Source: Lethocerus indicus
Lineage: Eukaryota > Arthropoda > Insecta > Hemiptera > Belostomatidae
Direction of reading: 5' to 3'
DNA length: 64,000 bases
NCBI GenBank assembly: GCA_019843655.1
Contig: JACDQD010000004.1
Span: forward strand, 2,046,001-2,110,000
A program made the position numbers and the translations under genes. Positions 3,603 through 60,115 of this stretch are shown one piece after another; the stretch's first letter is position 1, and each line of letters begins with the position of its first letter. The notes under the pieces were generated by a model, which was not told where the DNA came from, did no database searches, and was given only the letters and a program-made list of their open reading frames with translations.

Positions 3603-5301
3603 ATGGTGACAATAGGTGATATAAACGGGCCGCCGTTGGATTTTTCCTTCAAAGGTCTGCACACAATCGACGAGATGAAAACTGAAAAACCGAGGCAGGG
3701 GGCGAAAAAATACAAACGTGCAACAAACGGCAAATATTACTGTTCGTCGGTACGCCTCAACAACAATTTGCTTTCAACAATAAGTGGGCTACATACTGTC
3801 ATCACAGACGTAAGAAACATTTAGTAATTGATATATTTTTCAGTTTGTTGAGTACATTTACAAAAAAAAGGGGTAATCGGAAGAAATACACAGAATTTAA
3901 GTGGTATTTTAAATTACGGCAACAAATTGCATTCAGTATATTATTTATTAGTTGAGGTGCAATTTAAGTGTACTAAAATAGTACAGATTGTAGATTGGTG
4001 ATGTTGTTTCTGTCTCCTCTCGCCGGTTTCGTCTTCTGCTAGACCGGTTTCGGCCGCTCGCCGTCTTCAGTGCCCGAAAAACGTCCAGAGTGGCTGCCAA
4101 CACCGCTACTGAAGATGGCGAGCAGCCGAAACCGGTCTGGCAAAAGAGAGAGAGAGCAGCGAGAGGCGATAGAAAGACACGAAATCTGGGGGTATTCCAA
4201 CCCCTCGCAGACCAAAAAACAGGTATGATAAGCTAGTTTCCTGGTGTGTTGTGATTTTAAATTTATTAAATTCTATTCCAGATGGTGGAAACGCCGGAGA
4301 AACTGACCTGGTTAGATTTGTCCTTCAATCGACTGTCATCGCTGCCCCCGGATTTGACGTCTTTCACAAATCTCAAAATTCTCTATCTCCACGGAAACGC
4401 TCTCTCTGACATAACTACAGTTCTACGGCCATTGAAGTCAGTGCTCGGTCATTGCGGGGAAAATAATTTAAACGTGAACATTTCACGACCTAAAAAATTA
4501 TTTTATATTCTTACAATATTGCTTATGAATTGCTCAGTGGAACTACTTGAAAAAATACGGAAATATTAAATCGTTTATTATTGGATCCTTTTTTTTAAAA
4601 AGTACACCAAAGAATATCTGTAAAGTACAAAGTACCAAAGAACCTATGGGGTGGAGGACTAAATTGAGCAATGATTTTTTTGATTCCATATATACTAATT
4701 TCTTAGATGTGAAACCTGTGTTTAGAATTTAGGAATGCTCTATTTTTATTTTTCCGTGGGTTCATTTTGATTTTCCAAAGTTTAACTTAATTTATTTAAA
4801 ATTATTTTTAAACCGTTTAGCAATTTCATAGGAGAGACACTTCGAGTGTGGACTATTTAGATGTAACTAGTGGGTACTGTAGTTCTAACCATTTTTATTG
4901 AAACTGTAATGAAAATATTTGAAGTGCATTGAAAACTTTATTTCATTCAATCTCCAAATGCAGGAGCCACCCTATATGCATAATTATATTTCATGAAATA
5001 TTCTTTTAAATATTTACAACTATTTTTTATGAGCATTATATTTTAGATGTATTTTTAAAAGGTCAAGTTCAAATTGTATGTGTTTATTTCTAGGACATTG
5101 GAGGGATTGATCAGTTTGACACTTCATGGAAATCCGCTTGAAGAGAGAAAGAATTATAGAAATAAAGTTCTGTTGGGTTTACCGCACTTGAAGAGTCTTG
5201 ATTTCAATAATATCACTTCTGCTGACCGCAAGCGCATTGCTGCGCAGATGAAACATCCCCACGGCGGTTCGCTAACGCCCCATCACGGTAGCAAATTCTA
5301 A
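3603..5301 (+). CDS. LRRC51: LRRC51-like leucine-rich repeat protein, 3 coding exons (join 3603-3809, 4282-4436, 5094-5301)
   Basis: The exons join to a complete 189-residue protein, close to the ~192 residues of vertebrate LRRC51. Exon 1 (3603-3809) encodes residues 1-69, with the family's PPLDFSF motif at 10-16 and a first repeat around RLNNNLL (51-57). Exon 2 (4282-4436) holds LTWLDLSFNRLSSLP (77-91) and LKILYLHGN (100-108). Exon 3 (5094-5301) holds LISLTLHGNPLEE (126-138) and the capping stretch ending at TAA. Splice sites are GAC|gtaaga, cag|ATG, TTGAA|gtcagt and tctag|GACA, with phases 0 and 2. The start was set at the ATG seven bases after a strong acceptor (tttctgttgcag, to 3595); the open frame upstream is intron-like. 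LRRC51 is a small leucine-rich repeat protein thought to act through protein contacts, with expression linked to ciliated tissue. Its exact role here is inference. Intron 1 is half filled by a family P element. Confidence 0.9.
3990..4227 (+). mobile_element. family P palindromic element inside LRRC51 intron 1
   Basis: Left and right arms are imperfect reverse complements: tgtctcctctcgccgg on the left, and a right arm with gaaaccggtctggcaaaag. The right end carries the family tail (ccaacccctcgcagacc to aacaggtatg). The element makes up about half of the 472-base intron and lies between the two splice sites without touching them. Confidence 0.85.
4105..4141 (+). ncRNA. hammerhead-like ribozyme motif in family P right arm (intronic)
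   Basis: Read on the + strand: GCUA (4105-4108), CUGAAGA (4109-4115), stem II GGC/GCC, GAAA, CCGGUC with the predicted cut after 4137, then UGGC pairing with GCUA through one G-U wobble. This is the order of a type I hammerhead. A bulged U before stem II and a stem III that can only pair between molecules are weak points. It lies in sense within the LRRC51 primary transcript. Confidence 0.5.
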
Positions 5302-14454: not shown

Positions 14455-14830
14455 TCTAGACGGAGAAGATCTCTGGGCCAGCGCGGTTTAAGCCCCACTT
14501 TGGAACTGGCGCAAAGGCGGGAATGAACTTTGTCAAACCGAGATTCAGGGGCCAGCGTAGAATACCTGTTTTGCGGTCTAGCGAAGGGGGTTGGAATACA
14601 GTAGATTTCGCCGGTTCGGTCTATCGCTAGACCGATTTCGGCCGCTCTCCATCTTCAGTAAGCGGTGTCAGTCAGTTTGGACGTTTTTTAGGCATCCCCG
14701 CTGAAGGAACTGAAGAGGGCGAGCATAAGAAATCTACGGTATGCGGGGCAGCATTGAGGGCGGTTCAAAGGACTTTCGATTGGAATTTCTGAACGCGAGC
14801 AACGTTGGATGTCTAATCTAATAAAAGAAG
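14455..14830 (-). mobile_element. decayed Jockey-type retrotransposon fragment split by a family P insertion
   Basis: 14458-14510 (agatctctgggccagcg, then gtttaagcc) and 14745-14825 (cagcattgagggcggttc to gttggatgtc) match, on the minus strand, the 3' part of the better-preserved Jockey copies at 30.2, 33.9 and 51.5 kb. The middle (14562-14741) is a family P element, so P inserted after, or together with, a deletion in the Jockey relic. Confidence 0.65.
14562..14741 (-). mobile_element. family P element, tail on left
   Basis: The tail (atacctgttttgcgg) is at the left, the left arm holds a degenerate ribozyme block (14626-14663, minus strand), and the right end is the inner terminus AATCTACGGTA. 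The right arm is heavily deleted. Confidence 0.75.
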
Positions 14831-16851: not shown

Positions 16852-16996
16852 TAGATTTGTTGTGTTTCTGTCTCCTGTCGCCGGTTCGGTCTTTTGCTAG
16901 ACCGGTTTCGGCCGTTCGCCATCTTCAGTAGGGGACAGAAACACAACAAATCTACGATATTCCAACCCCTCGCAGACCACAAAACAGGTACGTTAA
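16852..16996 (+). mobile_element. family P element, right arm collapsed, tail on right
   Basis: The left arm is complete. The right arm lacks its ribozyme block but keeps ggacagaaacacaacaaatc and the full tail ending aacaggtacgttaaa. Confidence 0.85.
16896..16930 (-). ncRNA. hammerhead-like motif in family P left arm
   Basis: On the minus strand: CUGAAGA, stem II GGC/GCC, GAAA, CCGGUC, UAGC. Stem I keeps only three pairs because the upstream base is C instead of G. Confidence 0.4.
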
Positions 16997-17299
16997 ATTA
17001 AAACAATCGATACCTTCTTTCCCTATTTCAGTTTTCATTAGATGTGCTTCATATTCATCTAGCCCAGTATATAGGTCTGGTAAGACATTGTTTTAAATCA
17101 TTTTCTTCAAGGTTGTGCATAATTTCATCCCCCGCGCCCCGTCACGAAATAACGCCGCTTTATGCTCGGAGGCGGACGCCTCGTGTCGTCGTACAGGCTG
17201 GATATGTGTCAGAAACAATCATTTCGGTACGTAATTAACTGTAATTTCGTGATATAATAAGAGACGAATCTCCGGGGTTGAACCCGACCGCGCCAACGC

Positions 17300-18529: not shown

Positions 18530-18694
18530 TACCGTAGATTTCTGCGTCTCCTCTCGCTGGTTTGGTCTTTTCCGCTAGACCGGTTTCGGCTGCTCGCCGT
18601 TTTCAGTAGCGGTGTCGGTGTTTTTGGGCATCCTCACTGCACCGTGTCAGCAAAAGCCAGCGCGAGGAGACAGAAACACACGAAATCCACGGTA
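18530..18694 (-). mobile_element. short-form family P element with inner termini at both ends
   Basis: It begins TACCGTAG and ends CGGTA without a tail at either end. The ribozyme block in the left arm (18574-18610, minus) has CUGAAAA in place of CUGAAGA and is probably inactive. The right arm starts abruptly at AGCAAAAG after a GTC (18646-18651), the same junction as the copy at 26736. Confidence 0.8.
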
Positions 18695-20430: not shown

Positions 20431-20544
20431 CGTAGATTTCGTGTATTTCTGTCTCCTCTCGAATGGTTCGGTCTTCCGCCGGACCAGAAATGGCTACTGA
20501 AGGTGGCGAGCAGTCGAAACCGCTGCGCAGACCATAAAACAGTT
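20431..20544 (+). mobile_element. family P element, short and degenerate
   Basis: Left inner terminus cgtagatttcgtg, collapsed centre, a damaged ribozyme block (20493-20524) and a decayed right tail (cgcagaccataaaacag). Confidence 0.75.
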
Positions 20545-21822
20545 ATTTCAAACCGATTTGGATATATTTCAAGACTTCCCGGTTGATTGCCGCTAGGATT
20601 TGAGCTTGTGTAAGTTCGAATAGTCAAAAGACTACCGGTTTTTCCTCAGCATTAACGGAAGCGATTTCGGTTCACAAAATGCATGATTATGTGCATTTCC
20701 AAACGGGCTGGGGTAAACTCTCTAGGATTTTCCTTCTCCTCATCGCCTAAGGCACCCGACTTCGATATATAAACTCGCTGATTACGTTATCAGTGTTCAG
20801 GGGGGCCCTCCTAAACTGAATTTCTAATATAATCCATTCTAATAGTCAAACTCTTTTTCCAGGTTTTCGTTTTTTTTCAGGCTAACATAATTTCGCGGTA
20901 TTTTTCCAACAACGTCCTGTTTTACATTTCGATACCGGATCGCTTTCAATGTGTTGTTAAAAGGCCCTCCCTGAAATCAGGCCTCCCTTTTGAACGGCCG
21001 TCTCACGAATATTTATTATACCTGTTATTTGTACAAATAAATTTAAATTCTGAATATTCTCCGAACAGATACGGGAGTTGGCCTATTTAAAATTCGTGCC
21101 GGTGGTTGTGAGGGGCCCTAATAGGGGCGCGTTGACAGGGGGAGGCCGGCGGTTTTTGCACGGCCCAACCCCCACCGCCCCCCGCCCGCATTTTGCAAAA
21201 CACGGTATCGCAATATTTCCCATTATTCGGCGATCAATTATTGGCGCGGGACGACGGGCTCGTCATTAATAAATACCGCGTACCCTCCGGTGGCGGGGAC
21301 CGCAGGTGTCGCCCTGACCCGGCATCGGGTGGTCGCCGCCGCTTATTCCGTTATAAAACCCGTACTTCGGTATGAAAATCGTGAAACCGGCTGCGATTCG
21401 GATGACTCGTGACCAGCGCCCTTTAGAAAGCCACTAGAAAATTTGCGGATTATTTTGCAGAATTTATAGAATTATAAATTCTATTTTTCCAATCGTCCAA
21501 ACCCTACTATCCTCCTCCTCTAAACCAGTGGGTTTCTCCTCCATTGTTGTCAGTGCTTGTATCAATGTTGCTTATTGTAATTTTTACAGTAGCAACAATA
21601 GAAGAGAGAACAAAAAATGTACTTATTGCCGCAACTGTAAAATACAATAAACGACCTTTCCAGGAGTCTGTGAGGAACGTTCAGAATGTCGGGAAACAGT
21701 GGGGTTTGTACCAGATGTGTTAGGATGTTGGATTTCGGACAAACGGGACATTAAGATCTGTATTTAGAATGAGGAGTGAGTAATTTTCCTTAATATTTTC
21801 CACTGTAAAGTTTGTATTTTCA
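20545..21822. other. spacer, nothing recognised
   Basis: Contains a GC-rich patch at about 21100-21340. No gene supported. Confidence 0.4.
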
Positions 21823-21966
21823 TTAACATACCTGTTTGGTCTGCGAGGGGTTGGAATACCGTCGATTTCGCGTGTTTCTCTCTCATCTCGCTGGTTCGGC
21901 CGAAACCGGTCTAGAAAAAAAAACCGAACCGGCGAGAGGAGACGGAAACACAACGAATCTACGGTA
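21823..21966 (-). mobile_element. family P element lacking the ribozyme core, tail on left
   Basis: Left tail (aacatacctgtttgg), short arms, and a right inner terminus AATCTACGGTA. The CUGAAGA half of the ribozyme block is deleted on both sides. Confidence 0.8.
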
Positions 21967-22849
21967 TTTGTCGATATCTGTCGGAATATATATTTTATTA
22001 AATAAGAACAAACCGTGTTTTATATATTAATTCGGGTTAATTATCCTTCGACGTTCTACAGACGTCACTACAGAATTCTACGATAGCAGAGCGTTGTTGT
22101 TCTGAAAACAACGCGCAGTTTAATCCGAACGATACTGTAGGGTGTTGGTATAAAATGACGGTTTGAGCGAAGCAATTCCTAACGAATATCAGGCCCGGTT
22201 TTCAATTATAGGCTCCGGTGCATTAAAAAGCAAAAACGAAAAGGGAGAAATTGCACGTATGGCGAGTAGGGCCCGCCCGCCCAATGTGCATGTCGAACGC
22301 ACGTATTTAGACATGCGATTTGGAACCGGCCGCGGATTGCATAAAACGGTGCAATTAAGTGCAAGGTTTTTTTCAAATGGAATTTTTCATTTTCAAATCA
22401 GTAGTCAGGCCGGTCCGAATTGGAAAACGTTTCGGAAATATTTTCGTGAGAATTCCAGCTCTTCACCTACCTTAGTGTTTTCGGCAGACTGATTTATTGT
22501 AATTTCAATACACAATAAAATTTCAACTAGTGTATAACTTTTAGTATACTGTGGGACAAATGATGTATGATTTGGTAAGATTATTGGGTTTGTCCAGCAT
22601 AAATTATACGAACCGTACGTTTTAATAATGAAACAATTATTAAAAAAGGTAGATAAATATATATATATTAAAAGCTAGCTGATTCCCAGTCTGGTTAGGC
22701 GGTTTAAATGATGACTAATATTACTCTTCCGTCTTCAGCTTTTTTTTCCTTCCCTTATGAGGTGAGGCTTGATTATGAGGAATATGCAATATAAATGGGG
22801 TGTACCACACCCCCCCCCCCACCCGGGCGGGAGTAAATTTTACCCTCTT
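21967..22849. other. spacer with an open frame of unknown status
   Basis: An open frame at 22163-22492 (109 codons, +) has fairly balanced composition, but I recognise no domain and see no splice context, so it is not called a gene. Confidence 0.35.
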
Positions 22850-23125
22850 TACCGTAGATTTTTTGTGTTTCCTCTCGCCGGTTTGGTCTTTTGCTAGACC
22901 GGTTGCGGCCGCTCGCCATCTTCGTTTTTCGGGCATCCCCACTGCACTGTCACTGTCACTATGTACTGCGCACAGTACCAACGGTGTACCAACAGTGACC
23001 GACACCGCTACTGAAGATGGCGAGCGGCCGCAACCGGTCTAGCAAAAGACCAAACCGGCGAGAGGAGAAAGAAACACAAAAACGGTATTCCAAACCTTCA
23101 AAGACCACAAAACAGGTATGTTAAA
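22850..23125 (+). mobile_element. full-length family P element, tail on right
   Basis: Both arms are well preserved around a centre with cactgtcactgtcact. The right tail ends aacaggtatgttaaac. Both arms carry the same change in the ribozyme core (GAAA to GCAA; right arm 23007-23043, left arm 22893-22924), which should abolish cleavage. Confidence 0.9.
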
Positions 23126-23625
23126 CTTTAAAATATTAATATAATTAATTAATATTAATAATAAGAGACGGACAACTGCTAAACCGAAGAAGGGAAGCTC
23201 CTGACGCCCACACTGCTCCATTGTTCTGCCGACATTTTTCCCGGGAACCCGAGGGCGAAATATCAAATGTCCCCTTTAATTTGAAAATAAAATGCTACAA
23301 AGAAGAATACAAGGAGGCGCTCCCTCCCGTCCTGGAATTTATCAAATTCTCAATGCGGACAGGCGAGGGGGGGGGGCCCGGGTAAATAATACCGCGATAT
23401 TGCTTCGCATAACGCCGACCGGCGTTTTCTGTTGTTCGGAGGACGCGGTTCGTTTAATTCTGTACGATAGAAGTGGCATTCGTATTTGACAAAAATAAAA
23501 AAAAAATTATAAATAAAAGTACAATTACGGGGCCTATTTCCGGCGCCGGCAGAAATTTCTTAGGGCTCGGACAAAATGAAACGTCGAGCTGAAAGTGTAT
23601 TTGAAAATTTAATTTAAAAAAAACG
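23126..23625. other. spacer, nothing recognised
   Basis: No supportable gene or repeat. Confidence 0.4.
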
Positions 23626-26735: not shown

Positions 26736-26830
26736 GTTGGATGTTTTTCGGGCACTGTTCCTCACTGCACTGTCACTGTCAGCAAAAGACCAAACCGGCG
26801 CGAGGAGACAGAAACACAACAAATCTACGG
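26736..26830 (+). mobile_element. 5'-truncated family P element with 15-bp target duplication
   Basis: The element starts in the interior spacer (gttggatgtttttcggg), has the short-form junction GTC|AGCAAAAG at 26778-26781 and ends at the inner terminus AATCTACGG(TA). It is flanked by perfect 15-bp direct repeats TACATGACCTAGTAT (26721-26735 and 26831-26845). The flanking TA may belong to the element, so the duplication is 13-15 bp. Confidence 0.9.
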
Positions 26831-26845
26831 TACATGACCTAGTAT

Positions 26846-30233: not shown

Positions 30234-30805
30234 ATTGGAAGAATCTTGCTTCTACAATCAACATTGAATGTTATAAAAGTACAAATGCTGCATGTATTTT
30301 TTTTTTTTCACATGCATTTCGTGACAAAAGGAACCACCCAAAGATAGCACTTTTCACACAAGAACAATTATAGACTAAGGGCTAAAATGATCTCTGGGCC
30401 AACGGCGTTTAAGCCGATGCGGGGGGTGGGATAATGGATGGGTAAGAGAGGAAAGGGAGTGAACGAGTGGATTGGGATGAGGAGAAAGGCGGGAGTGGAA
30501 CTTCAGGAACCGGGATTTTGCGACTTCGTCTAGTGTCGGGGTATGTTGAGGTCATGGTGGATTGTGGTAGTTAGAAACATACCCGGGGGGAGCATTAAGG
30601 ATGGTACGAAGGACTTTTGACTGAAAACTCTGGATGCGAGCGATGTCGGATGTCCTACACCGTATGTCCGTGTCGGTTTAAGTATCACTTTGCATCTTGT
30701 CAGTTTGTTACTTGAGGTAAATTTTGATGTCCGTTTTAGTAATGGCCTTAAGAGTCCAAATTTTCGGAGTTTTAAGATGTATTAAGATCTGCAAAAAGCT
30801 TCAGC
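30234..30805 (-). mobile_element. 3' fragment of a Jockey-type non-LTR retrotransposon
   Basis: Read on the minus strand it contains the C-terminal reverse transcriptase region (tacttaaaccgacacggac, then a block for catccgacatcgctcgc) and the shared 3' UTR (gcatttgtactttt..ataacattcaatg). It aligns with the copies at 33950-34392 and 51481-51890. It is 5'-truncated with several indels. The parent enzyme copies its RNA into chromosomal nicks. Confidence 0.8.
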
Positions 30806-32060: not shown

Positions 32061-32107
32061 CTCGGACCCTGATGATGGAACCGTTACGAATTCCGAAACG
32101 TCGGGAG
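32061..32107 (+). ncRNA. second-type hammerhead-like motif
   Basis: CTGATGA (32069-32075) is followed by a bulged T, stem II GGAA/TTCC (32077-32080 with 32091-32094), GAAA (32095-32098) and CGTC. ACGT gives a self-complementary stem III and GTC a cleavage site at 32102. Stem I pairs CC with GG next to the core and CTC with GAG after a three-base bulge. The flanks do not resemble family P. A decayed relative is near 47381-47416. Confidence 0.4.
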
Positions 32108-32770
32108 ACGACAACAGCCGGGAGGGCGCTCGGGCGGTCTCCAACCAAAGGAAAAATCCCACAATATTAAATTAGTGATATACTAAAATTGTCCGCACAA
32201 ACCAAGTAGAATTTTATGAAAATTTAACAATTTATATATATGAACTGCCCGCGCTCCAAATAAACGAGTTCGATTAGGCTAAAACGCCTGTTAACGATAA
32301 TTGAATTGGCGATCGATATTTACCGACCGGCTTTACTGCTGTTCGAAATTCGGCTCGTAACCGTAGAACGAAGATCGTAAACGCGCTTCGCCGTTGTCCG
32401 AATTTACGTTTCGGCGATTGAAATAAAATTTATTCGTATCCCACAGTAAATATCCGCTCGGCGAGTTGTCCAAATAAAATGTTTACGTTATTTGTAAAAG
32501 CTGTAATACAAACTTCCGTACATCCGATACGGGACACGAGGGCGCTGTACTGAAAAATACGTGACTGATATAATTTTCAAGAGATTTAGAGCGGTATCGT
32601 TTCTTGAAGGAACAATACTTAAATTATCAATTCATTCCGATCTTCAAAATTCTGTTCGAAATCAGTGACAACGCTATAGAAAATATATTGGAATCGATAC
32701 TACAGAAGGGCCTACTGAAGGCTATAACTTGGTGGTGGTGGTTGGAAATTCATTCATATAGAAAATCTAG

Positions 32771-32993
32771 TTTAACATACCTATTTTGTGGTCTGCGAGG
32801 GGTTGGAATACCGTAGATTTCGTGTAGATTTTCTGTCTCCTCCCGCTGGTTCTTGGCACTTTGGCTGGTTTTTCGGGCGTACTCACTGCACTGTCACCTG
32901 TACGGAAGTGACTCGCACACCGCTACTGAAGACGGCGAGCGGCCGAAACCGGTCTGGCAAAAGAGGCGACAGAAACACGCGAAATATACGGTA
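32771..32993 (-). mobile_element. family P element, tail on left
   Basis: The left end carries the full tail (tttaacatacctattttgtg, then tctgcgaggggttgg). The right arm is complete and ends at the inner terminus (atacggta). The left ribozyme block is missing, with the arm running straight into ttggcactttggctgg. Confidence 0.9.
32922..32958 (+). ncRNA. hammerhead-like motif in family P
   Basis: GCUA, CUGAAGA, a CGGC/GCC stem II, GAAA, CCGGUC and UGGC are all present, with stem I closed through one G-U pair. All core positions are intact. Confidence 0.5.
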
Positions 32994-33949
32994 TAAAAAT
33001 ATCGTTACCCCCCAGAAAATCTAATACAGTGAGTAAGTTACGTGAAAACAAAAAAAAAAATCGTATCGCAAACGGGAATTGAAAAACTCATTTTTCTGTT
33101 GATGCATTATTGGAGAAGGTTGGGGTCGAGGGGCGTGTTGGTGTTGGGGTTGAAGAGGGGCGCGGGGCCGCTTTGCCACGTGCCGGTCGGGCACACCCTG
33201 AGCCACTTCCAGTCGTAGCAACCTCATTAATCCTAACAACCGGGATTTCTCCCGGCCTTCTCAAGGTCGCCACAAGGCCAACTTATGGGTCGGAGCAAGA
33301 ATTAAGGCACTCGGCACTTGGGAGGGTCAAATTGGCAAATTGTAGGCCGGGTTCCGTTCGGTTCGGTAAAGGCGTATTTCGTCCGAAATAATTTCAATTT
33401 TTTTTTGGTCATTAATGTTATTTTTATTCCATCAGTCTCGAAAGATATTACGTGAAATTGTATTAATAGATCGTATCTAGAAATTGGCCTAAACGTTTAG
33501 AACTGTACATAATCCGGCCTCCGAGTGAAAACAGATATATTTCTGCGGCCGTATACGAAAATTCAAAAATTACCGAAGCCCGTTAGAGCGTCAGAAAAGG
33601 CCGCTCATAGATATCTATGAAACTTTGCCAGTTTGAATAAGTATAAGTAGAAGGCCATAACAGTATATCAGGGGCGACAGAAAGCGGCAGCTATGGGGCG
33701 TTATATTTGCCGGTGGCGGCCAGATGCGCTGCGGGGCCACACTTCGTTTTATTTCCAGAAATGAGGAAAAATACAACGCCATGAATTATTACAAAAGTCC
33801 AGAAATGACTGTCCCGTTCCGGAATTTAATAAAAACTGCTGACTATGTGTAAACATTTCTTATATAATTACTATATTTAAATTATTCAGCCCGGATACAA
33901 TCTCGTCTTAGAAACGAGTATTCCACATACCCGATTCAAAAGAATCGAC
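32994..33949. other. spacer with a G-rich patch
   Basis: 33110-33170 is G-rich. Open frames there are compositional. Confidence 0.4.
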
Positions 33950-34392
33950 TTAAACCGACAATTTGGACTCTTAAGGCCATCTTAAGGACATCAAAATTGA
34001 CCCAAAGTGACAAACTCAAAATGTACAAAGCGATACTTAAACCGACACGGACATACGGTGTAAGACATCCGACATGGCTCGCATCCAGAGATTTCAGTCA
34101 AAAGTCCTTAAGTACCATCCTTAATGCTCCCCTCCGGGTATGTTTCTAACCAGACAATCCACCATGACCTCAACATACCCCGACAGTCGACAAAGTCCCA
34201 AAATCCCGGTTCCTGAATTCCCACTCCCGCCTTTCTCCTCATCCCAATCCACTCCCAGGTTCAGTACCTTTCCTCTCTCTCGGTACCATCTTTGGGCGGT
34301 TCCTTTTATCACAAAATACATGTGAACAAAAAATACATACAGCATTTGTACTTATAACATTAAATGATGATTGTACAAAATAAAAAAGGTTA
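33950..34392 (+). mobile_element. 3' fragment of a Jockey-type non-LTR retrotransposon
   Basis: Translates with frame breaks to KLKMYKAILKPTRTYG followed by a block encoding LSTILNAP and HSRLSPHPNPL, typical of the end of Jockey reverse transcriptase. It continues through the 3' UTR (catacagcatttgtactt) to an A-rich end. 5'-truncated and frameshifted; not functional. Confidence 0.85.
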
Positions 34393-40282: not shown

Positions 40283-40452
40283 TCGTAGATTTCGTGTGTT
40301 TCTGTCTCCTCTCGACGGTTTGGTTTTTTGACTAACACCGCCACACTGAAGATGGCGAAACCGGTCTGGCGAAAGACCAAGCCAACGAGAGGCGACATAA
40401 ACACACAGGGGTATTCCAACCCCTCGCAGACCACAAAACAGGTATGTTAAAC
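40283..40452 (+). mobile_element. family P element, ribozyme stem II deleted, tail on right
   Basis: Left inner terminus, collapsed centre, and a right arm whose ribozyme block reads CTGAAGATGGCGAAACCGG, lacking the stem II hairpin. The tail is complete (ccctcgcagaccacaaaac to ggtatgttaaac). Confidence 0.85.
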
Positions 40453-45312: not shown

Positions 45313-47081
45313 CTCTAATCTACTGGCGGAGAGCTACTGAGGATGGCGAGAATTAAAATCGGTAATTGAAACTACCTCTCTATTATTTACGAATGTTAAT
45401 ATTATTTTCATGTCCCGTCATGTCAGTCTTCAAATTGATATTCATTTGAACATGTCATGGATGTTACAGCAACTTAAGATATTTCAGGGTTATCCAATTG
45501 AGGTGGGGAGAAAAAGTAGAAACATTTCGTTGAAATGTTCGAACATGTTTCGTTAAATTGAGACGCGGAAGGCGACTTGGATTCGGGACGTTGATCACTT
45601 CCTACAGGTTTGTTTTTGTTCAGTTTTGTTCCGTTTCCTCCGGGCCGGTTGCCCGTCCGCAATTGGCGTTATCTCCCCGGTCACGCTCTTCCGTGACTCC
45701 CGCACGACAACCTCACGAATCGATTACGCTAATTGTCGAAACCGTAACGTATTCATTTCATCAACGGCGGTAATCATCGTTACCCATTCGAGTGTACATA
45801 GAGCATGTAAAAATGTATCATCGCTCGTGTGTTTGTTGTGATAACGGAAACAGAAGATAACGGGACGGAAGAAACATCGAATGCGATATTTTTTATTTCA
45901 TTTTTATTTATTTTACGGTCGGCCCAAATTGAAATCTTAATTCGGGAACGTGAAACCGGTCTTTTTCTCTCTCTCCCTCTCGAAGTACCTGACTTATTTA
46001 GGAATACATTTTACGCCGTCCCAATTATTCGGACGGCTCATTTTTTCCCCCCCTGGCCAAGGGGGCAGGGTGTCAATCGTTGGGCATAATTGTTAAGAAA
46101 GAGGAGAACACGGCCGAGAGGATGTTTCCCGTCCGGTGGGGGAGGGATATGCTAAGGAGGAGCGCCCCACCTGCCTAATGCCGTTGCATTTCTCGGCCGA
46201 CCTCGTTTTGCATTGCTGATTGTTGGGGAGGGGGAGGGGGGGGGTGGACCCGATTTCAAAATTTTATTTCTTCCTCCTAAGCGGAAACTCTCCCGGCCCT
46301 CAATACTCCTTTCAATTAGGAAGCGGTCCCCGATTAAACCTGGCAATAGGAAATCGGAGCACAACGATTATAGTTTGTAGTTATTGCATTGTGTAGGGCT
46401 CGGTCGATCCCTAAAATTAAATTCAGTAAGCCCAATTCATAAGGGTTTATATTGTAGGAGGTTTTCACAATTGGGGAAAGAAACAGTTGTGTTAATTTTT
46501 TGACTGATTTAGTGAACTTAGTGTACAGTAGAGTAGCGTGTCTTCGGCGGTGTCGATTGGTTAAAGAGTCATTGCCCGGCTCCCGGAGGACTTTGCGCCT
46601 TCGCCCGCCCTCCTCCGTGTACAAACGCCGGCAGGGTTTAGTTAAAGGGACCCTCGGGACCTCTTCCACCCCCCCCCCCCTTTCTCATCCCCCTTCACTT
46701 TTCCTGCCTCTTTCTCTCCGCCTCTCTCTAACTCTCTTGTGCCGCCCCCCGCTGAGAGGGAGCTGTTGTCGGGGTGGGTTTCGAGTAAGACCTCAAGCCG
46801 CCGCCCCCCACCACCACCCGCCAGGCCCTACTCTTCCGGCCGCAACCTCTTTACCAGATTGTCGACAAATTTAACCATTTGACCCCACCCCCGCCCCCAC
46901 CCTTCACCACTCTGCTCAGTCAACCTCTTTTTGAGATACCGCCTCTGGATTAAAACCGCTTTCTTCCTAAAAGATTTTCCGAAAGAAATGTTTTCAACAA
47001 AATTCAACGATTTTTCCGCGCCTCGCGCCGGGACATTTCATTAAGAAAATAACAATAATATACGATCGGAATTACAGTCTC
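45313..47081. other. spacer with a family P scrap and a GC-rich island
   Basis: 45334-45362 (gagctactgaggatggcgag) is a piece of the P ribozyme arm. 46190-46260 and 46660-46910 are C- or G-rich low-complexity DNA. No gene supported. Confidence 0.45.
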
Positions 47082-47200
47082 ACGTTTTCGGTCGCTCGTC
47101 ATATTCAGAGTCACTTGGGCACTTTGGATGCCACACAAGCAACATGAGAAGGACACGAAATCTACGTTATTCCAACCACTAGCAGGCCACGAATCGGACA
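47082..47200 (+). mobile_element. degenerate family P element
   Basis: cgttttcggtcgctcgtcat and attcagagt match the left ribozyme block with many changes. The right end keeps cacgaaatctacg and a decayed tail (ttccaaccactagcaggcc). Confidence 0.65.
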
Positions 47201-47369: not shown

Positions 47370-47420
47370 AGACGGACCCGGTTGATCGAACCGTTGAGAG
47401 TTGCGAAACGTCGGAAGCGG
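47370..47420 (+). ncRNA. decayed relative of the 32.06-kb hammerhead-like motif
   Basis: Shares GGACC, GAACCGTT and GCGAAACGTCGG with the 32061-32107 region, but the CTGATGA core is replaced by TTGATCGA, so it should not cleave. Confidence 0.3.
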
Positions 47421-47571
47421 AGAACACTCGTCGACGGAGGAGAGGGCAAAAACCGTTCCAGTGGAGCTCCAGCGAATGGTTTCGAAAAACAGGAAAAATC
47501 CGGGAATAGTAGGTGGAGGGGGTCAACGCGTGCTAATCCAGGTTCTCACTGATGACTAAAATATAATTATA

Positions 47572-48460: not shown

Positions 48461-48862
48461 CTAACGTACCTGTTTTGTGGTCTGCGAAGGGGTTGGAATA
48501 CCGTAGATTTCGTGTGTTTCTCTCTCCTCTCGCCGGTTCGGTCTTGTGCTAGACCGGTTTCGGCCGCTCGCCATCTTCAGTAGCGATGTTAGGCACTTTG
48601 GATGTTTTTCGGGCATCCTCACTGCACTGTCACTGTCACTGATTCTGTGTTTCTTGTCGCACCACACTTTTGCTTTCTCTTTAAATAAAAATTATTAGAT
48701 ATAGACAAAGTTCGTTGGGTGCGCTAGCACCGATTAACTAGATTACTAAAAATAAACTTTTTTCAATAAATTTTGGATCAACAGGTAAACGTTTAAGACC
48801 GTAAATACGGATAGGTTTCCGGTCATATATTCGGAAGTCAGATCCTAATACTTGTGACCACC
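48461..48862 (-). mobile_element. family P element with extended interior (module A), tail on left
   Basis: The left tail and arm are well preserved to the cactgtcactgtcact spacer (about 48640). The interior continues with ctctttaaataaaaattatt, attagatatag, gattactaaaaataaac and ggaagtcagatcctaata. Those blocks are shared in reverse orientation with 52600-52860 and in part with 59830-59940. No right arm follows before the tandem repeat restarts. Confidence 0.8.
48548..48584 (-). ncRNA. hammerhead-like motif, perfect family consensus
   Basis: On the minus strand, GCUA / CUGAAGA / UGGC-GAGC-GGCC / GAAA / CCGGUC / UAGC, with four Watson-Crick pairs in stem I and no changes in the core. Confidence 0.55.
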
Positions 48863-48958: not shown

Positions 48959-49066
48959 AATTTAACGTACCTGTTTTGCGATCTGCTAGGGGTTGGAATA
49001 CCGTAGATTTCGCGTGTTTCTCTCTCCTTAGAGAGGGGAGTCAGAAGCACACGAAATCTACGTTAT
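48959..49066 (-). mobile_element. family P element with the whole centre lost
   Basis: Tail (tttaacgtacctgttttgcg) and outer left arm run straight into the outer right arm (gagtcagaagcacacgaaatc), forming a short palindrome around ctccttagagagggga. Confidence 0.8.
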
Positions 49067-49552
49067 TCTCTCTGAATATTCCTCAGTGACTGGACGGGTC
49101 TTATTGTAAGGACACGCAAAATTCATAAAAGAATCTATTGTCTCCGATATAGGGAGTCGGTTATTTATTCGCAGTCGATGAAATTCGGCACAATTCTAAA
49201 GACTGTATTAGACTGAACGGCGTAATTAAAAAAAAAGGAAAATATCGCGATCTACCGTGACAGGGTATACGTTTTATGAGTAATGATAGCTTGCGATGAA
49301 TCGACGGAAGAAAGAGTTTCCTGAGTAGAGATGGGGCGGGGGGCGGATGGGAGATATAAACGGAGTGGATGTTGAGATTGGAAGAATGGAGTGTTGTTGG
49401 ATGGGGGCCAGATGGGCCCGCGTGGGCAGGTTTTTGAGTGGGTCCGAGATGCAACACCTGGCGCCAAGTGCACCGGCCTCGATGCACCTGCACTTCTCCA
49501 TCGGGATAGAGCCCCCAAACCCCCTCTAACACGCACGAACACAATTCTCTTC
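49067..49552. other. spacer, nothing recognised
   Basis: G-rich on the + strand at 49330-49440. Open frames on both strands share no known domain. Confidence 0.35.
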
Positions 49553-49860
49553 GTCGTAGGTTCGTGGTGTATCTGTCTCCTCTCGGCGCGGTCTGGTCTT
49601 TTGCTAGACCGGTTTCGGCCGCTCGCCATCTTCAGTAGCGGCGTTAGTCACTGTCGGCACTTGTATATACGCATTTTGTTATTGTTATTGGGGAATTGTG
49701 TTTGTCTTGTTTGGGTTGGAGTCAGATTGTCGGATATGAGGGGGAGGGGGTGGGTGTATATTTTCTGCGTTAGATGCATTAAATCCTATCGGGATATTAA
49801 AAAAGACCAAATAAATAACCAAATAAAAGACCAAACCGGCGAGAGGAGACCGCGTTTTTG
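49553..49860 (-). mobile_element. family P element with interior module B
   Basis: The left inner terminus and arm contain an intact ribozyme block. The interior (49655-49800) has ttgttattgttattggggaa and tttgtcttgtttgggttgg, related to 52505-52600. The right arm is reduced to agaccaaaccggcgagagg and truncated. No tail. Confidence 0.8.
49603..49639 (-). ncRNA. hammerhead-like motif, perfect family consensus
   Basis: Same sequence as the 48548-48584 motif on the minus strand; all core bases and the four-pair stem I are intact. Confidence 0.55.
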
Positions 49861-49863
49861 GTT

Positions 49864-50116
49864 ACACCGTAGATTCCCTCTGTTTATGTATTCTCTCGCA
49901 GGTTTGGTCTTTTGCTAGACCGGTTTCGGCCGCTCGCCCTCTTCAGTGCCTTCAGCGAGGATGCCCCAAAAACATCCAAAGTGCCTAACACCGCTACTGA
50001 AGATGGCGAGCGGCCGAAACCGGTCTGGCAAAGTCCAGACCGGCGAGAGGAGACAGAAACACCACAAACCTACGGTATTCCAACCCCTCGCAGACCACGA
50101 AACAGGTACGTTAAAC
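49864..50116 (+). mobile_element. full-length family P element, tail on right
   Basis: Left inner terminus (caccgtagatt), both arms, the spacer with gaggatgcccc and aaacatccaaagtgcc, and the tail ending aacaggtacgttaaac. This is the best single copy for defining the family structure. Confidence 0.95.
49993..50029 (+). ncRNA. hammerhead-like motif in right arm
   Basis: GCUA, CUGAAGA, GGC/GCC stem II, GAAA, CCGGUC and UGGC; stem I closes with one G-U pair. The opposite arm (49914-49950, minus) has lost stem I pairing. Confidence 0.5.
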
Positions 50117-51480
50117 TTCTAAATTAAAACATTCTTATGAAAATGGATGATCGAAATTCCTGTCAATATGAATTTTGTATATCATTCGTTTCGTAAACTG
50201 GAAAATATTCGTCTTTTGGAAAACTGTTTGATATTCAGCAAGACCAGTGTCTGATTCACGGCCATTAGTGCTAGCGAGCCCACCCTTGAGGCAGAGAGAG
50301 AGAGAGAGAGAGATCGAAAAACGGCTCACGTATGCCTATGCATCGTCAGAAGAGCCAGAGCACAAGAGCAGATCACAAAGCCGATAATAAACAGAGGCCC
50401 GCCACGGGCTACCCACACACTGAAGCAGGGGAGCTTTCAAAGCTCGAATAAGCCGAACTGGCTGCTCAAAGTTGCTTACGGCCGTATTCCCGTACGCGCA
50501 CATTCGACCGTTCCTCTGAAATCCCATGAGACGGCCCACACTTTCTGGCGCTGCATTTTTCGGACAATGACTTTTAAGCGCGTTAAAAAAAAAAAAAAAA
50601 AAAAATTATAAACCCGTCCGCGTCCCAAGCTAGAGACCGGTTTACGACTTAATAAATGGGCCACCGTCCCGCGCTGACAGAGCGTCCTGTCTGCAGACGG
50701 GATCACGCGCCACAAATCTGCTATGACATTCCGAGACCCGACGAGGACCGCCGAACGGGTATCATAAATTATTAACACCTACTTTGTTGCACCATTGGGA
50801 TGTAAATGCTGCAACACCACGCTCAACTCACAATCAGGCTTCTGCACTAATGGAACGTAATTTATATTCCCACTATAAATAATTATGTGACGACTTGTTT
50901 TCGACTGATGACTTCAAAAAAATCCGTATATAGAACTCTGTACGAAGAAAGTGGGGGGGCTTTATAAAAAGCTTAGTAAAAGCGCATCGTTTAGCTCCTT
51001 CTCCATCTACTCGACTCCACAGGCCCAATTCGGATTGAAAAGAAAGTCATTGAAAATATCAATTAATTTGTTAATGAGCTATAATTGTGATAAATCTGTT
51101 GTCAATTTCGTAATATCGTTTCGTTTCTTTCGAAAAGACTAAAAAAATCACTCTGTCACTCTAATCATAATGTTCCTTACGGACGCCTGAAAATGAAGTG
51201 GCCATGTGATATGTACAATATAATAGGGAAAAAAAACAATAATATTAAATAAATATAAAAAAAGGGGTAAAACCCCGATATATTCTACTCGTTATTGGTT
51301 CTGCTCAAACACCAATGTCGCTTATTGTATCTTACAGTAATTACAATAAAATCGTAATTAATTGCGGCAGTTGAACTATCATTGGTGGGTTCAGGCCCTC
51401 TTCCGATACCAACAAATGCTGTCCCCCTCAAGTCAAAATTTTCGTAGATCGTATAATACTATGGAAATAAAAATAACCAA
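50117..51480. other. spacer with (GA)n at 50292-50313 and poly-A at 50586-50605
   Basis: No gene supported. Confidence 0.45.
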
Positions 51481-52445: not shown

Positions 52446-52990
52446 TCTCCTCCATTTGCCGGACAAGTTTCGGCCGCTCACCATCTTCAGTAGCGGTGTT
52501 TCGGCACTTTGTATGTCTTTTGGGTGTCTTGTTATTGTGTTTATGGGGATGATGTTTGTCTTATACGGGTTGGGATTATCAGTCAAATATATGTATTTGA
52601 TCACACCGGTCACAAATATTAGGTTCTGACTTCCAAATATATGACAGGAAATACCTATCTGGTATTGTATATTTAAGATCATAAAAGTTTTCCCGTCGAT
52701 CCGAAATTTTTTGAGAAGCGTTTATTTTTAGTAATCTAGTCAACAGGTGCAATTGCACCCGACGAACATTAGTTAAGTACATTTCCGCACCACCCTCAGG
52801 GGGCGCTAGTTAATCTATATCTAATAATGTTTATTTAATGAGCCAATGTGCCAAAAGTGACTAGCACCGCTAGTGACACTGGTCACAACTATTAGGTTCT
52901 GACTTCCAGACAGGTTTCGGCCGCTCGCCGCCTTCAGTAGCGGTATGAGTCCAAACCTGCAGGAGGAACACGAAATCTACATTATTTGGA
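52446..52990 (-). mobile_element. composite family P element with modules A and B
   Basis: A left ribozyme block (52466-52494, damaged) is followed by module B (ttgttattgtgtttatgggg). Module A comes next in reverse order (attaggttctgacttcca, gtttatttttagtaatctag, catttccgcaccaccctc, atctatatctaataat). A second ribozyme block (about 52912-52945, degenerate) and arm end in cacgaaatctacatt. The tract attaggttctgacttcca occurs twice (52619 and 52892), so two elements or a rearranged one may be present. Confidence 0.65.
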
Positions 52991-53672: not shown

Positions 53673-53843
53673 CCGCGACCGCAGTACAAGCGACAGTGAC
53701 AGTGACAGTGCAGTGTGAGGATGCCCCCGAAAAAGTGCCAATAGTGACTGACACCGCTACTGAAGGTGGCGAGCGGCCGAAACCTGCCTGGCAAAAGACC
53801 GAACCGGCGAGAGGAGACAGAAACGCAAAAATAATCTACGGTA
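53673..53843 (+). mobile_element. family P right half, no tail
   Basis: Starts in the interior (cgaccgcagtacaagcgaca) with a (cagtga)n tract, then the right arm with a damaged ribozyme block (53756-53792; CTGAAGG and CTGCC), ending at the inner terminus AATCTACGGTA. Confidence 0.85.
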
Positions 53844-53902
53844 AAGAAATATAGTTACATATTTTTATTGAATGATGAAAGTCTAAATTATTTTCAGATG
53901 TA

Positions 53903-54030
53903 TACCGTTAGATTTGTTGTGTTTCAGTCGCCGGTCTTTTAGAGATTATTGCTCGCCATCTTCAGTAGCGGCTACTGAAATGGCGAGCGGCCGAAACCGG
54001 TCTCTAGCAAAAGACCGAACCGGCGAGAAC
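53903..54030 (+). mobile_element. compact family P element
   Basis: Left inner terminus (taccgttagatttg), short arms meeting at cttcagtagcggctactgaa, and a ribozyme block with a one-base deletion in the core (53971-54009, CTGAAA then TGG). The right end is truncated after gaaccggcgaga. Confidence 0.8.
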
Positions 54031-54595: not shown

Positions 54596-57500
54596 GTGTC
54601 GTGGGGGAGGTTCGGGGCGGCACGGCGGGTAGGAGGCCGGAGAGAGGATGTGAGTTGTCGACGGGCAAGCGGGGGTCTTGGGCGAGGTTCGGGGCGGCAC
54701 GGCGGGTAGGAGGCCGGAGAGGATGTGAGTTGTCGACGGGCAAGCGGGGTCCGGGGAGGTTCGGGGCGGCACGGCGGGTAGGAGGCCGGGAGAGGATGGA
54801 GTTGTCGACGGGCAAGCGGGGGTACTGGGGCAACGGTGGAGGACTATGGGGCTGGACGGGAGGCGGCGAGGGCCGGATGAGAGGATGCAAGCCTGTCCGG
54901 GGCCCGTTCGCGGAGCGGCGGTAACTGGGCGGCACGGCGGCAGATGGACGCCGAGACGCGGAAGGACGGCGGAGCGGGAGATGGTCGGGGCGGACGGGCG
55001 TGGTCCGGGGGGTGTCTGGCCGGACGTCTGCTGGGGCGGTAGGATGGCACGGAGGCGAGAGAGGATGGACAGCTGTCACGGCGGCCCGGTCCCGGCACGG
55101 CGGGTGGAGCCGGAGAGATGGATGTGAGCTGTCGACGGCGCAAGGCGGGGGAGAAGGTTCGGGGGGCACGGCGGGAGGAGGATGGATGGACGGCGCAAGC
55201 AAAGGTCGACGGCAATCGTGAGGTCTGGGAACCCGGCGAGATGGACGGGAGGATGGAGTTGTCGATGTGGGCCCGGGGCGGGGTCTGGTCGTGAGGATGG
55301 AGGTTCTGGGCGGCGGATGGAGGTCCCGTAGAAGGCACGGCGGAGTAGGAGGTGAGGGAGGATGGAGCTGGTCGACGGGCAGGCGACGGGCGCGGTGGTG
55401 TGAGGTCTGGGCGGTCACGGCGGGACGAGGCCCGAGAGGATGGAGATGCGTCGACGCGCAAGCGGCGGGATGATGCCAACGGCGTGGTCCGGCACGGTAC
55501 ACGGCGGCGGCCGGGAGGCCGACGGAGATGAGATCGATCAAGCGGCCTATGGCTGGCACGGGTCGACGCGCCGGGTGGCGGGGTCGGGAGTCGGGCGGCA
55601 CGCGTGGAGGCAGGAGGCCGCTGGTCGACGGGCGCGGGGTCGGGGATGGGCGGGCACGGCGGGCAGGAGGCCGGAGAGAGGACGTGAGCCGGTCGACGGG
55701 CAACGACGGGCGAAGCGGTGGTCGTAGGGGAGGTCGGGCGGCACGGCGACAGTGGTCGAGGATGGAGTCATCGGGTCGGGCGGCCGGGGAGGGGAAGCGA
55801 GGGAGAGAGGACGGAGGGCACGGCGTTAAACAAGGGTATCGGGCGAGGTCTGGGCGGCGGCAATGGCGGCAGGAGGGCCGAGTGATTTGTTGGATGCAAG
55901 CTGTCGCGGGTAGGCGAGGAGCAAACGGGCAAGTGGCAGGGAGGTCTGCGGCACGGCGGGGAGGGTCGAGAGAGGATGTGAGCTGTCGACGCGTTGGGTG
56001 GTCGGGGAGGTCGGGGCGGCACGGCGGTGGAGGCCGGAGGGAGGATGTGAGCTGTCGACGGCGCGGGGTCGGGGAGGTCTGGGGCGGCACGGCGGGGTAG
56101 GAGGCCGGAGAGGATGGAGCTGGTCGACGCCAAGCGGTATCGTAGGAGGTCTGGGGATGTTACCGATGGCAGAGGTCGGATGAGGACGGAGCCAACGATC
56201 GCCGTGCCGGTAACGGGGAGGTCTGGCGGCAATTATGGCAGGAGGCCGGAGAGAGGACGTGAGCTGTCGACGCGCCGGGTCTCGGGGGAGGTCTGGGCGG
56301 CACGGCGGCAGGTGGTCGGAGAGGATGGGAGCTGTCGACGCGCCGGTATCGGGGAGGTCTGGGGCGGCACGGCGGGCAGGAGGTCGGAGGGAGTGACGAG
56401 CTGTCGACGGGCGCCGTCCGGCGAGGTCCGGCGGGTAGGTGGCCGGAGAGAGGATGAGCTGTCGACGGGCAAGCGGTGGTCGGGAGGTCTTCGGGGCGGC
56501 ACGGCGGGTAGGAGGTCGAGAGAGGATGAGCTGTCGACGGGCAAGCGGGGGTCCTGGGGAGGTCTGGCGGCACGGCGGCAGGGTATCGGAGAGAGGATGA
56601 GCTGGTCGACGGGCGTTGGTGGTCGGGGAGGTCTGGGGCGGCACGGCGGCAGGAGGGCCGGAGGGAGGTGATCGGCGCCCGATCTATCGGCTGGGGTCGG
56701 GGAGGTCGACGGCACCCGGGCAGGCGGACCGGAGGACGAGATGTCGACGCCGGGGGTCCTAGAGGTCTGGCGGCAACGGCGGGCAGGTATCGGAGAGGAT
56801 GGAGCTGTCGGACGGGCGTGGCACGGGAGGTCTGGCGGCACGCGGGCAGGATCGGAGGAGGACGGAGATGGTCGACGGGCAAGCGGGTCTTGGGGGAGGT
56901 TCGGGCGGCACGGCGGCAGGAGGTCTGAGGAGGATGACGACGGGCAAGCGGGGGTCTTCTGGGGAGGTAGGGGGCACAAGGGTAGGAGGTCGAGAGAGGA
57001 TGGAGATGTCGACGGCAAGCGGGGTCTTGGGCGAGGTCTGGGCGGCACGGCGGCAGGAGGCCGGAGAGAGGATGAGCTGTCGACGGGCAAGCGGGGTCTG
57101 GGCGAGGTTCGGCGGCACGGCGGGGTAGGAGGCCGGAGAGAGGATGGAGCTGGTCGACGCGCCGGGTGGTCGGGGAGGTTCGGGCGGCACGGCGGGTAGG
57201 AGGCAATGGAGGAGGATGAGCTGTCGATCGGGCAAGCGGGGGTCCTAAGAGGTCTGGGGCAACGGCGGGCAGGAGGGAGGATGTGAGTTGGTCGACGGGC
57301 AAGCGGGGCCCCATGAGTCTGGGGCGGCACGGCGGGTAGGAGGCCGGAGGGAGGATGTGAGTCGACGGGCAAGCGTCCGGCGAGTTCGGGCGGCACGGCG
57401 GGTAGGAGGCCGGAGGAGGATGTGGAGCTGTCGACGGCAAGCGGTCCTGGGCGAGGTTCGGGGCGGCAATGGCGGCAGGAGGCCGGAGAGAGGATGAGCT

Positions 57501-57760
57501 GTCGACGGCAAGCGGGGGTCTTGGGGGAGGTCTGGGGCGGCACGGCGGGTAGGAGGCCGGAGGGAGGATGAGTTGTCGACGGGCAAGCGGGGTCGGGAGG
57601 TTCGGGGCGGCACGGCGGGTAGGGAGGCCGGAGAGGATGAGAGTCGACGGCAAGCGGGGTCTGTGGAGGTCTGGCGGTCGGCGGTGGGTAGGTGGGCCGG
57701 AGAGGATGGGAGTGTCGACGGCAAGCGGGGTCTCTGGGGAGGTCTGGGCACGCGGGTAGG
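54596..57760. repeat. GC-rich tandem satellite array, ~70-77-bp unit, about 40 units
   Basis: Each unit carries gaggttcggggcggcacgg (or a tctgg variant), cgggtaggaggccggaga, gaggatgagctgtcgac and gggcaagcggg. Units differ mainly by indels in G runs and by one or two bases. The part at 54840-55560 is more divergent. The + strand is G-rich and nearly free of stops on the minus strand, producing long Pro/Arg-rich open frames of up to 509 codons that are not genes. The array ends at the assembly gap and is probably longer in the genome. Confidence 0.95.
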
Positions 57761-57860
57761 NNNNNNNNNNNNNNNNNNNNNNNNNNNNNNNNNNNNNNNN
57801 NNNNNNNNNNNNNNNNNNNNNNNNNNNNNNNNNNNNNNNNNNNNNNNNNNNNNNNNNNNN
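57761..57860. other. assembly gap, exactly 100 N
   Basis: A run of 100 N is a conventional placeholder of unknown true length. It directly abuts the satellite array. Confidence 0.99.
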
Positions 57861-59825: not shown

Positions 59826-60115
59826 TGCATTAACGAACTTTAGTTAAGTACATTTCCGTACCACCCTCAGGGGGCGCTAGTTAGCCTATATCTAATAATT
59901 TTTATTTAAAGAGAACACAAAAGTGTTGCGAGACAACCACGACAGTACAAGTGACAGTGACAGTGCAGTGAGGATGCCCGAAAAACATCCAAACTGGCTG
60001 CTACTGAAGATGGCGTGCGGCCGAAACCGGTCTAGCAAAAGACCAAACCGGCGAGAGGAGACAGATATCTACGGTATTCCAACTCATCGGAGACCACAAA
60101 ACAGGTATTCTAAAC
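59826..60115 (+). mobile_element. family P right half with part of module A, tail on right
   Basis: Module A part (catttccgtaccaccctcag, atctaataatttttattta), the (cagtga)n tract, the spacer, the right arm and the tail (ccaactcatcggagaccac to aacaggtattctaaac). The left arm is absent. Confidence 0.85.
60000..60036 (+). ncRNA. hammerhead-like motif, intact core
   Basis: GCUA, CUGAAGA, stem II GGC-GUGCG-GCC, GAAA, CCGGUC, UAGC. The only change from consensus is in the stem II loop, where it should be tolerated. Confidence 0.55.

Follow-up and report, generated by a model that had tools for sequence, protein, structure and literature searches.

The repeat family that we call family P very probably consists of short, mostly 5′-truncated copies of a new family of Penelope-like retroelements (PLEs) with a putative PLE-type minimal hammerhead ribozyme. 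Its longer copies, found in the 64,000-nt stretch of Lethocerus indicus DNA analyzed here (the window), would each run from an upstream, pLTR-like part through a minimal type I hammerhead into an ORF, of which they hold the first 25-38 codons, and what appear to be the arms of inverted repeats are better read as PLE copies lying head to head than as the inverted repeats of a transposon. A first-pass annotation had already proposed a type I hammerhead-like ribozyme and had pointed to newt satellite and Penelope-like hammerheads. We favor a minimal type I hammerhead of the PLE kind, but not for the reasons given there; it is the surroundings (arm ends, orientation and the presence of one tail) that decide the matter and not the motif by itself. 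If the reading is right, a puzzling "ribozyme in inverted repeats" becomes a known kind of retroelement, and family P is a further PLE family, in whose many tiny copies the sites where reverse transcription began are recorded.

The reference motif lies on the minus strand, where the 29-nt block CTGAAGATGGCGAGCGGCCGAAACCGGTC is exact at 48552-48580 and flanking GCTA and TAGC complete the motif at 48548-48584 (Table 1). Within the window, which has a GC content of 43% and a eukaryotic appearance, the block has 16 matches with at most three mismatches, compared with 0 in 100 shuffles, and 19 matches with at most eight; 18 of these 19 were read ungapped, the match at 53974, which has an indel, being omitted. 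The order of hammerhead elements that the annotation had described at this place and in about 18 copies is thus borne out. The hammerhead core (CUGANGA, GAAA, U16.1 and an allowed base 17) is kept in 11 of the 18 ungapped copies and in the consensus, and is broken in the other seven. Stem III, ACCGGU, is loopless and self-complementary. Six of the 18 copies, starting at 4109, 32926, 48552, 49607, 49997 and 60004, combine the core with all four stem I and all three stem II pairs, and these are exactly the matches to the full type I descriptor in the window; dinucleotide-matched random sequence would be expected to give 0.0047 matches per 128 kb with a one-base insertion and 0.0038 without insertion. 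The annotation's "about seven copies" with all key bases accordingly becomes six that are fully paired, since 16896 has the core but only three of four stem I pairs. In all three pairs in which both arms reach the block, one arm is without the GCTA strand of stem I. The sequence running from the family P ATG is MASGRNRSSKRPNRREE..., and among the stop-to-stop frames of at least 120 aa in the window there is no evident gene.

Table 1. Parts of the reference motif and family P copies in the window (end positions with a plus sign are counted from the ATG).
Feature	Position	Strand	Remarks
Reference hammerhead motif	48548..48584	-	predicted cut between 48552 and 48551; R1 covariance model 20.3 bits
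Stem I, reference motif	GCUA 48581-48584, UAGC 48548-48551	-	
CUGAAGA, reference motif	48574-48580	-	
Inserted U, reference motif	48573	-	
Stem II, reference motif	GGC 48570-48572, GCC 48562-48564	-	
GAA, reference motif	48559-48561	-	
Stem III ACCGGU, reference motif	48553-48558	-	
C17, reference motif	48552	-	
ATG formed by A9, inserted U and first stem II G	48572..48574	-	proposed PLE ORF start; consensus MASGRNRSSKRPNRREETETHEIYGIPTPRRPQNRYVK
Tail of reference copy	48462..48498	-	from short end (~+76) to long end (+112)
One-armed copy	48462..48637	-	upstream (pLTR-like) part, hammerhead, ORF start, tail
Head-to-head pair	4005..4231		arm 4005-4070 (-) ends +72; arm 4109-4231 (+) ends +113; intact motif 4105-4141 (+)
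Copy facing short piece	14562..14741		minus copy ends +108, core intact, stem I 3/4, stem II 2/3; plus piece with short-type end at 14741
Head-to-head pair	16852..16997		ends +71 (-), +114 (+); motif 16896-16932 (-), core intact, stem I 3/4
Head-to-head pair	18530..18694		both ends +76; core G8 to A
Decayed head-to-head pair	20431..20545		A9 to G
Head-to-head pair	21823..21968		ends +113 (-), +78 (+); both arms 5′-truncated inside or past motif
Head-to-head pair	22850..23126		ends +76 (-), +115 (+); GCAA replaces GAAA in both arms
Fragment ending +76	26737..26832	+	with oppositely oriented upstream piece
Head-to-head pair	32770..32994		ends +115 (-), +77 (+); intact motif 32922-32958 (+), C replaces inserted U
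Head-to-head pair	40284..40452		ends +73 (-), +115 (+); stem II deleted
Decayed fragments	47080..47193		motif remnant 47080-47108 (-); arm 47147-47193 (+) ends +100
Head-to-head pair	48961..49068		ends +114 (-), +79 (+); motif lost by truncation
One-armed copy ending +73	49561..49643	-	intact motif 49603-49639
26-nt arm fragment	49825..49850	+	tail to tail with pair 49866..50116; not in end counts
Head-to-head pair	49866..50116		ends +75 (-), +115 (+); intact motif 49993-50029 (+)
Decayed copy	52455..52524	-	core kept, stem III damaged
Decayed 30-nt copy	52908..52937	-	A9 to G; not in end counts
Copy cluster	53698..54028		53698-53843 (+) ends +76; 53902-53932 (-) ends +77, tail to tail with the former; 53975-54028 (+) ends +47
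One-armed copy ending +115	59953..60115	+	motif 60000-60036; fifth stem I pair UGCUA/UAGCA; best R1 score, 23.0 bits

The arms were compared by BLAST (33 rows) and, after two short rows had been dropped and two merged, the ends of 30 arms were counted from the ATG at the start of stem II. Inner ends vary and outer ends are of two kinds, which we had defined before any comparison with the PLE literature: 15 of the 30 arms have a short end at +71 to +79 (class limits +68 to +82), 11 have a long end at +108 to +115 (class limits +103 to +120) and four end elsewhere. The consensus stops at +115, where the flanks diverge by eye, and a slightly longer end is possible. Directly before the long end stands ACCACAAAACAG, and at the long end there is a donor-like CAG|GTAYGT, while the TA at the short end is element sequence, because longer copies continue through it. 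When both ends of a pair could be classed, one was short and the other long in eight of nine pairs, the maximum possible, although under random pairing this one-tail pattern has p = 0.053. A MITE or other TIR transposon with equal inverted ends and a constant target duplication is disfavored on these grounds, the ends being unequal in 8/9 pairs and the TA internal to the element; target duplications in family P were judged by eye only. The 26 flanks have an AT content of 0.66 versus 0.57 for the window, a value reached by 3 of 2000 random sets.

A set of 32 arms contains 13 opposite-strand neighbors within 250 nt, of which 11 are head to head and two tail to tail (11 and one, respectively, with 30 arms). 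The same 32 arms include no same-strand neighbors within 250 nt, and we consequently rejected a retrozyme, a class described in extracts of PMC7229834 as short direct tandem repeats with a hammerhead in each. The two arms of the 22850/23003 pair show no difference over the 69 positions that were compared (indels not counted) and both have GCAA for GAAA, which fits two copies of one template. Copies 48467 and 59953 have a further upstream stretch in common, TATATCTAATAATTTTTATTTAAAGAGAA, at about 48677-48705 (-) and 59880-59915 (+), which may belong to the pLTR as well or may be a repeat that was captured.

Inverted pLTRs are a feature of the rotifer Penelope elements, for which extracts of PMC3846280 report that head to head is the most frequent arrangement, that a 31-bp tail is optional on one of the two inverted copies, and that the pLTR covers the first 12 ORF codons, or 22 with the tail; self-priming was proposed there as the source of the inverted pLTRs. 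Family P resembles Adineta vaga Pen2a and other Penelope elements in these extracts in its head-to-head arrangement, in the tail on one copy and in an ORF start inside the pLTR-like part. It differs from them in that the window contains only pLTR-sized copies without an ORF body, and its short and long ends take in about 25 and 38 codons instead of 12 and 22; the word "hammerhead" has 0 occurrences in the text of PMC3846280. PMC11167929 describes PAc, a Poseidon-type PLE of Anolis carolinensis, in which the ORF begins at hammerhead stem II, the hammerhead is cut 26 nt downstream of the ATG, reverse transcription starts 111-118 nt into the ORF at an AC-rich loop, and a 30-40 bp tail occurs, with both target strands cut and extended at AT-rich targets. 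Judged by this description, PAc and family P, in which no RT/GIY-YIG ORF was found, agree in the ATG at stem II, preceded by C3 and G8, in two end sites, of which the outer lies 111-118 nt into the ORF in PAc and at +108 to +115 in family P, in an optional tail (30-40 nt in PAc) and in AT-rich insertion sites; the cut falls 26 nt after the ATG in PAc and is predicted at 23 nt in family P. According to the same paper, the PAc hammerhead was cleaved only with its protein and was dispensable for insertion in vitro, and in public Anolis RNA-seq no reads start or end at its cut site (PMC11167929). The weak stems of family P are therefore not unusual, and a role for its hammerhead is something that we infer. 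Work by Luense et al. in 2017 and by Cervera and de la Pena in 2014 is said to have found that the minimal hammerheads of PLEs and Terminons cleave as dimers; these share with family P a short stem I, a very short stem III and an intact core. No RT or GIY-YIG domain was detected in 20 chosen window ORFs, and pLTR-sized copies would not hold such a domain. A protein search with the 42-residue ORF start returned nothing, in a comparison with proteins of similar length that is blind to a full-length PLE protein, and literature searches, judged from the search records, gave no publication that we recognized as describing family P.

What, then, could have produced such copies? The template would most likely be the transcript of a full-length element elsewhere. 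By analogy with the published elements, the PLE protein would have two sites in the ORF part of the RNA at which it can begin reverse transcription, which would give ends with or without the tail, and the head-to-head pairs would result when both target strands are cut and extended, as for PAc, or from self-priming. Cleavage by the hammerhead would fall directly behind GUC, at nt 23 of the ORF, and would probably occur only as a dimer via the self-complementary ACCGGU or with the help of the PLE protein. The copies in the window themselves look dead.

The annotation had named the extra U, which it took for a bulge before stem II, as a caution. Such a U is not in itself a defect: it recurs in hammerhead-like RNAs, and in the family P consensus it supplies the middle base of an AUG formed where stem II begins, the place at which the Anolis PLE has its start codon too (PMC11167929). 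Counted from this ATG the predicted cut is at +23, and the frame is open over 38 codons to the end of the consensus. The copies have no clear codon-position bias (37/636, 52/631 and 47/632), 7/36 of their indels keep the frame, and this lack of coding constraint is as expected of dead copies; the T of the ATG is altered in 5/19 copies, which places it among the block's two most variable positions. According to an extract of PMC10085705, at most one or two nucleotides may separate CUGAnGA from the stems next to it, and the motif has one, the U.

Viral IMG/VR contigs were scanned for hammerhead words and the loci tested with a three-stem descriptor, which for 361 loci gave 146, 20 and 1 distinct matches in which CUGANGA and stem II are separated by 0, 1 and 2 bases, respectively. 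When at least four stem II pairs were required and further loci added, there were 131 distinct matches with 0 bases and 28 with one base. In all 28 of the latter the insertion is U followed by a G-C pair, a share that is no natural frequency as the scan patterns required those letters in 22/28; of the 52 matches outside all scan patterns, 46 have no insertion and six have U. An alignment of 17 viral U forms has two-sided changes in 12/15 pairs, which speaks for consistency rather than proof, the forms having been selected for pairing. The viral U-inserted RNAs (for example those of L014, L188, L196 and L199) are like family P in the inserted U, the G-C first pair, ACC..GGU around stem III and the GUC cut site, and unlike it in their 6-bp stem I and looped stem III. 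This shared form may be convergent. A stretch of the outer arm had no exact match in the viral contigs, which are presumably phages. There are at least two U-inserted RNAs per contig in L188, L195, L196 and L199, and others occur in L014, L201, L223 and elsewhere; examples are L196:8004-8056 (-) and L199:9994-10051 (+). Contigs L258, L278, L340, L254 and L329 each have several canonical hammerhead-like RNAs that differ in stem III and are similar in stem I or II. Motifs of the form CTGAWGATG..CGAAACCGGTC are, we presume, common in arthropod repeats.

How far does the motif by itself speak for a hammerhead? The Rfam search that the annotation had suggested gave no hammerhead match over the window at gathering score. 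Rfam was also run on three regions with E values of up to 10: the best sub-threshold score near the reference copy was 19.5 of 56.3 bits, for the RAGATH-1 hammerhead, and at 49550-50120 all eight sub-threshold matches were to miRNA-precursor models and none to a hammerhead, because the paired arms form hairpins. The hammerhead-like RNA of L014, with its 6-bp stem I, is also under the threshold (22.9 of 56.3 bits), and the Rfam models are therefore insensitive to the U-inserted form, which their thresholds miss. We also used a covariance model, R1, of the 17 U-inserted viral hammerhead-like RNAs, with window sequence excluded. Its eight best window matches are all family P copies, led by the 60004 copy at 23.0 bits, which has a fifth stem I pair, with two consensus copies at 20.3 bits; in a control, 10/11 other viral loci (11 of 15 given) matched at 22-44 bits. 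Among 33 word-matched bacterial stretches only two, the same sequence in two contigs, have a stem II of at least four pairs, so that these stretches are mostly chance matches, and they were used as decoys. Decoys score up to 21.4 bits, the best exceeding the consensus copies, and 3/33 reach at least 20 bits, two of them (20.0 bits) being one sequence in two contigs. As far as such modeling goes, R1 supports the hammerhead motif without proving it.

A window match to R1 at 32067-32104 (+), with sequence CTGATGATGGAA..TTCCGAAACGTC and a chance-like 15.0 bits, was rejected as a second hammerhead, as its 54-nt relative at 47373-47426 (79.6%) breaks stem II; from their sequences the two may share a peptide. 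The R1 match at 40340-40370 is no separate motif, being a family P copy with stem II deleted, and scans for GCG and ACG variants, with patterns of the kind seen in animal repeats, found one stretch each, neither of which passed the descriptor.

The comparison of copies is no more decisive. Covariation, another check proposed in the annotation, was absent: among 17 aligned copies (16 distinct; 47080 and 53974 omitted) two-sided change occurs in 0/10 pairs, and the G-U pair in copies with TGGC for TAGC, offered as a hint of constraint, is a one-sided change common to several copies that says little. This result and the lack of an Rfam match at threshold are two of the three outcomes that the annotation had named as refuting its reading. 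In the share of cells that are paired, the hammerhead is matched by two rival structures (87.5, 88.1 and 86.8%). The core, with 7/211 cells substituted, is conserved no better than N7 together with loop II (5/116; p = 0.76), and across the copies the conservation pattern has no ribozyme signature. That the block is the most conserved part holds against the rest of the arm (34/700 versus 90/1129 substituted cells; p = 0.0097, the cells not being independent), but not against the outer tail, with 14/347. Folding favors other hairpins over the hammerhead, stem II by itself being likely in some copies. The hammerhead dimer, at -20.3 kcal/mol, lies 6.3 kcal/mol above the best dimer (-26.6 kcal/mol), and the monomer hammerhead could not be scored owing to its two-base loop.

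These results leave room for a different origin. Family P could be a fold-back or MITE-like DNA transposon with inverted arms of about 80 bp, in which the likeness to a hammerhead is coincidental and the block is kept by descent and arm pairing. Inverted arms of 37-40 nt with 90-95% complementarity do occur in two pairs, the arms of the five two-armed copies that were folded pair with each other wholly or partly at -74 to -159 kcal/mol, the motif is without covariation, and decoys reach 21.4 bits (1/33) and 20.0 bits (two, of one sequence). Such a transposon is, however, hard to reconcile with arms that are unequal and end at two preferred sites, with one-armed copies, with variation at inner rather than outer ends, with a chance expectation of under 0.01 full descriptor matches in 128 kb of random sequence, and with an arrangement that agrees in several respects with published PLE copies, and we consider it quite improbable. 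That a decoy outscores the consensus copies and that there is an extra tail-to-tail neighbor nevertheless made us slightly lower the odds of the PLE reading and raise those of the transposon. A still more remote reading, and to us an extremely improbable one, sees in the block the initial coding exon of a family of host genes: the open 38-codon consensus frame from the ATG and the donor-like long end would suit it, whereas the absence of clear codon-position bias, the small share of frame-keeping indels (7/36) and the altered T of the ATG in 5/19 copies would not.

A narrower form of our preferred explanation, compatible with it, is that the copies are those of a PLE in which the hammerhead is a decayed relic, inactive in this lineage. 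The broken cores in 7/18 copies, a core kept no better than loop II, stems at the lower limit and the success of rival folds all point this way, and we regard a relic as a serious possibility, if somewhat short of an even one. Yet core and base 17 are retained in 11/18 copies and in the consensus, descent from a single young master would give this same picture whether or not the master's ribozyme works, and the Anolis PLE hammerhead likewise requires its protein (PMC11167929).

If family P is a PLE, then the ribozyme and the start codon could be one object: the hammerhead would tolerate the U of the AUG, a cut 23 nt downstream would sever the AUG from the ORF and so switch the transcript from message to template, and the one tail per pair would mean that at a single insertion each DNA strand is primed at an RNA site of its own. 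We offer this whole scheme as speculation that is rather unlikely to be right. The PLE reading as such offers a reason why a PLE-type hammerhead can have an extra U, namely that it is the U of a start codon, and allows a connection between cleavage by the ribozyme and the start of translation to be tested.

Two other features of the window deserve mention. Two related reading frames with ILKPTRTYGV, at 33868-34149 (+) and 30530-30781 (-), have no Pfam match and look like the terminal part of the reverse transcriptase ORF of a LINE. Finally, long GC-rich arrays of units of about 72 bp (68-93% matches) occupy 54604-57749 and are closely followed by a stretch of N at 57761-57860.
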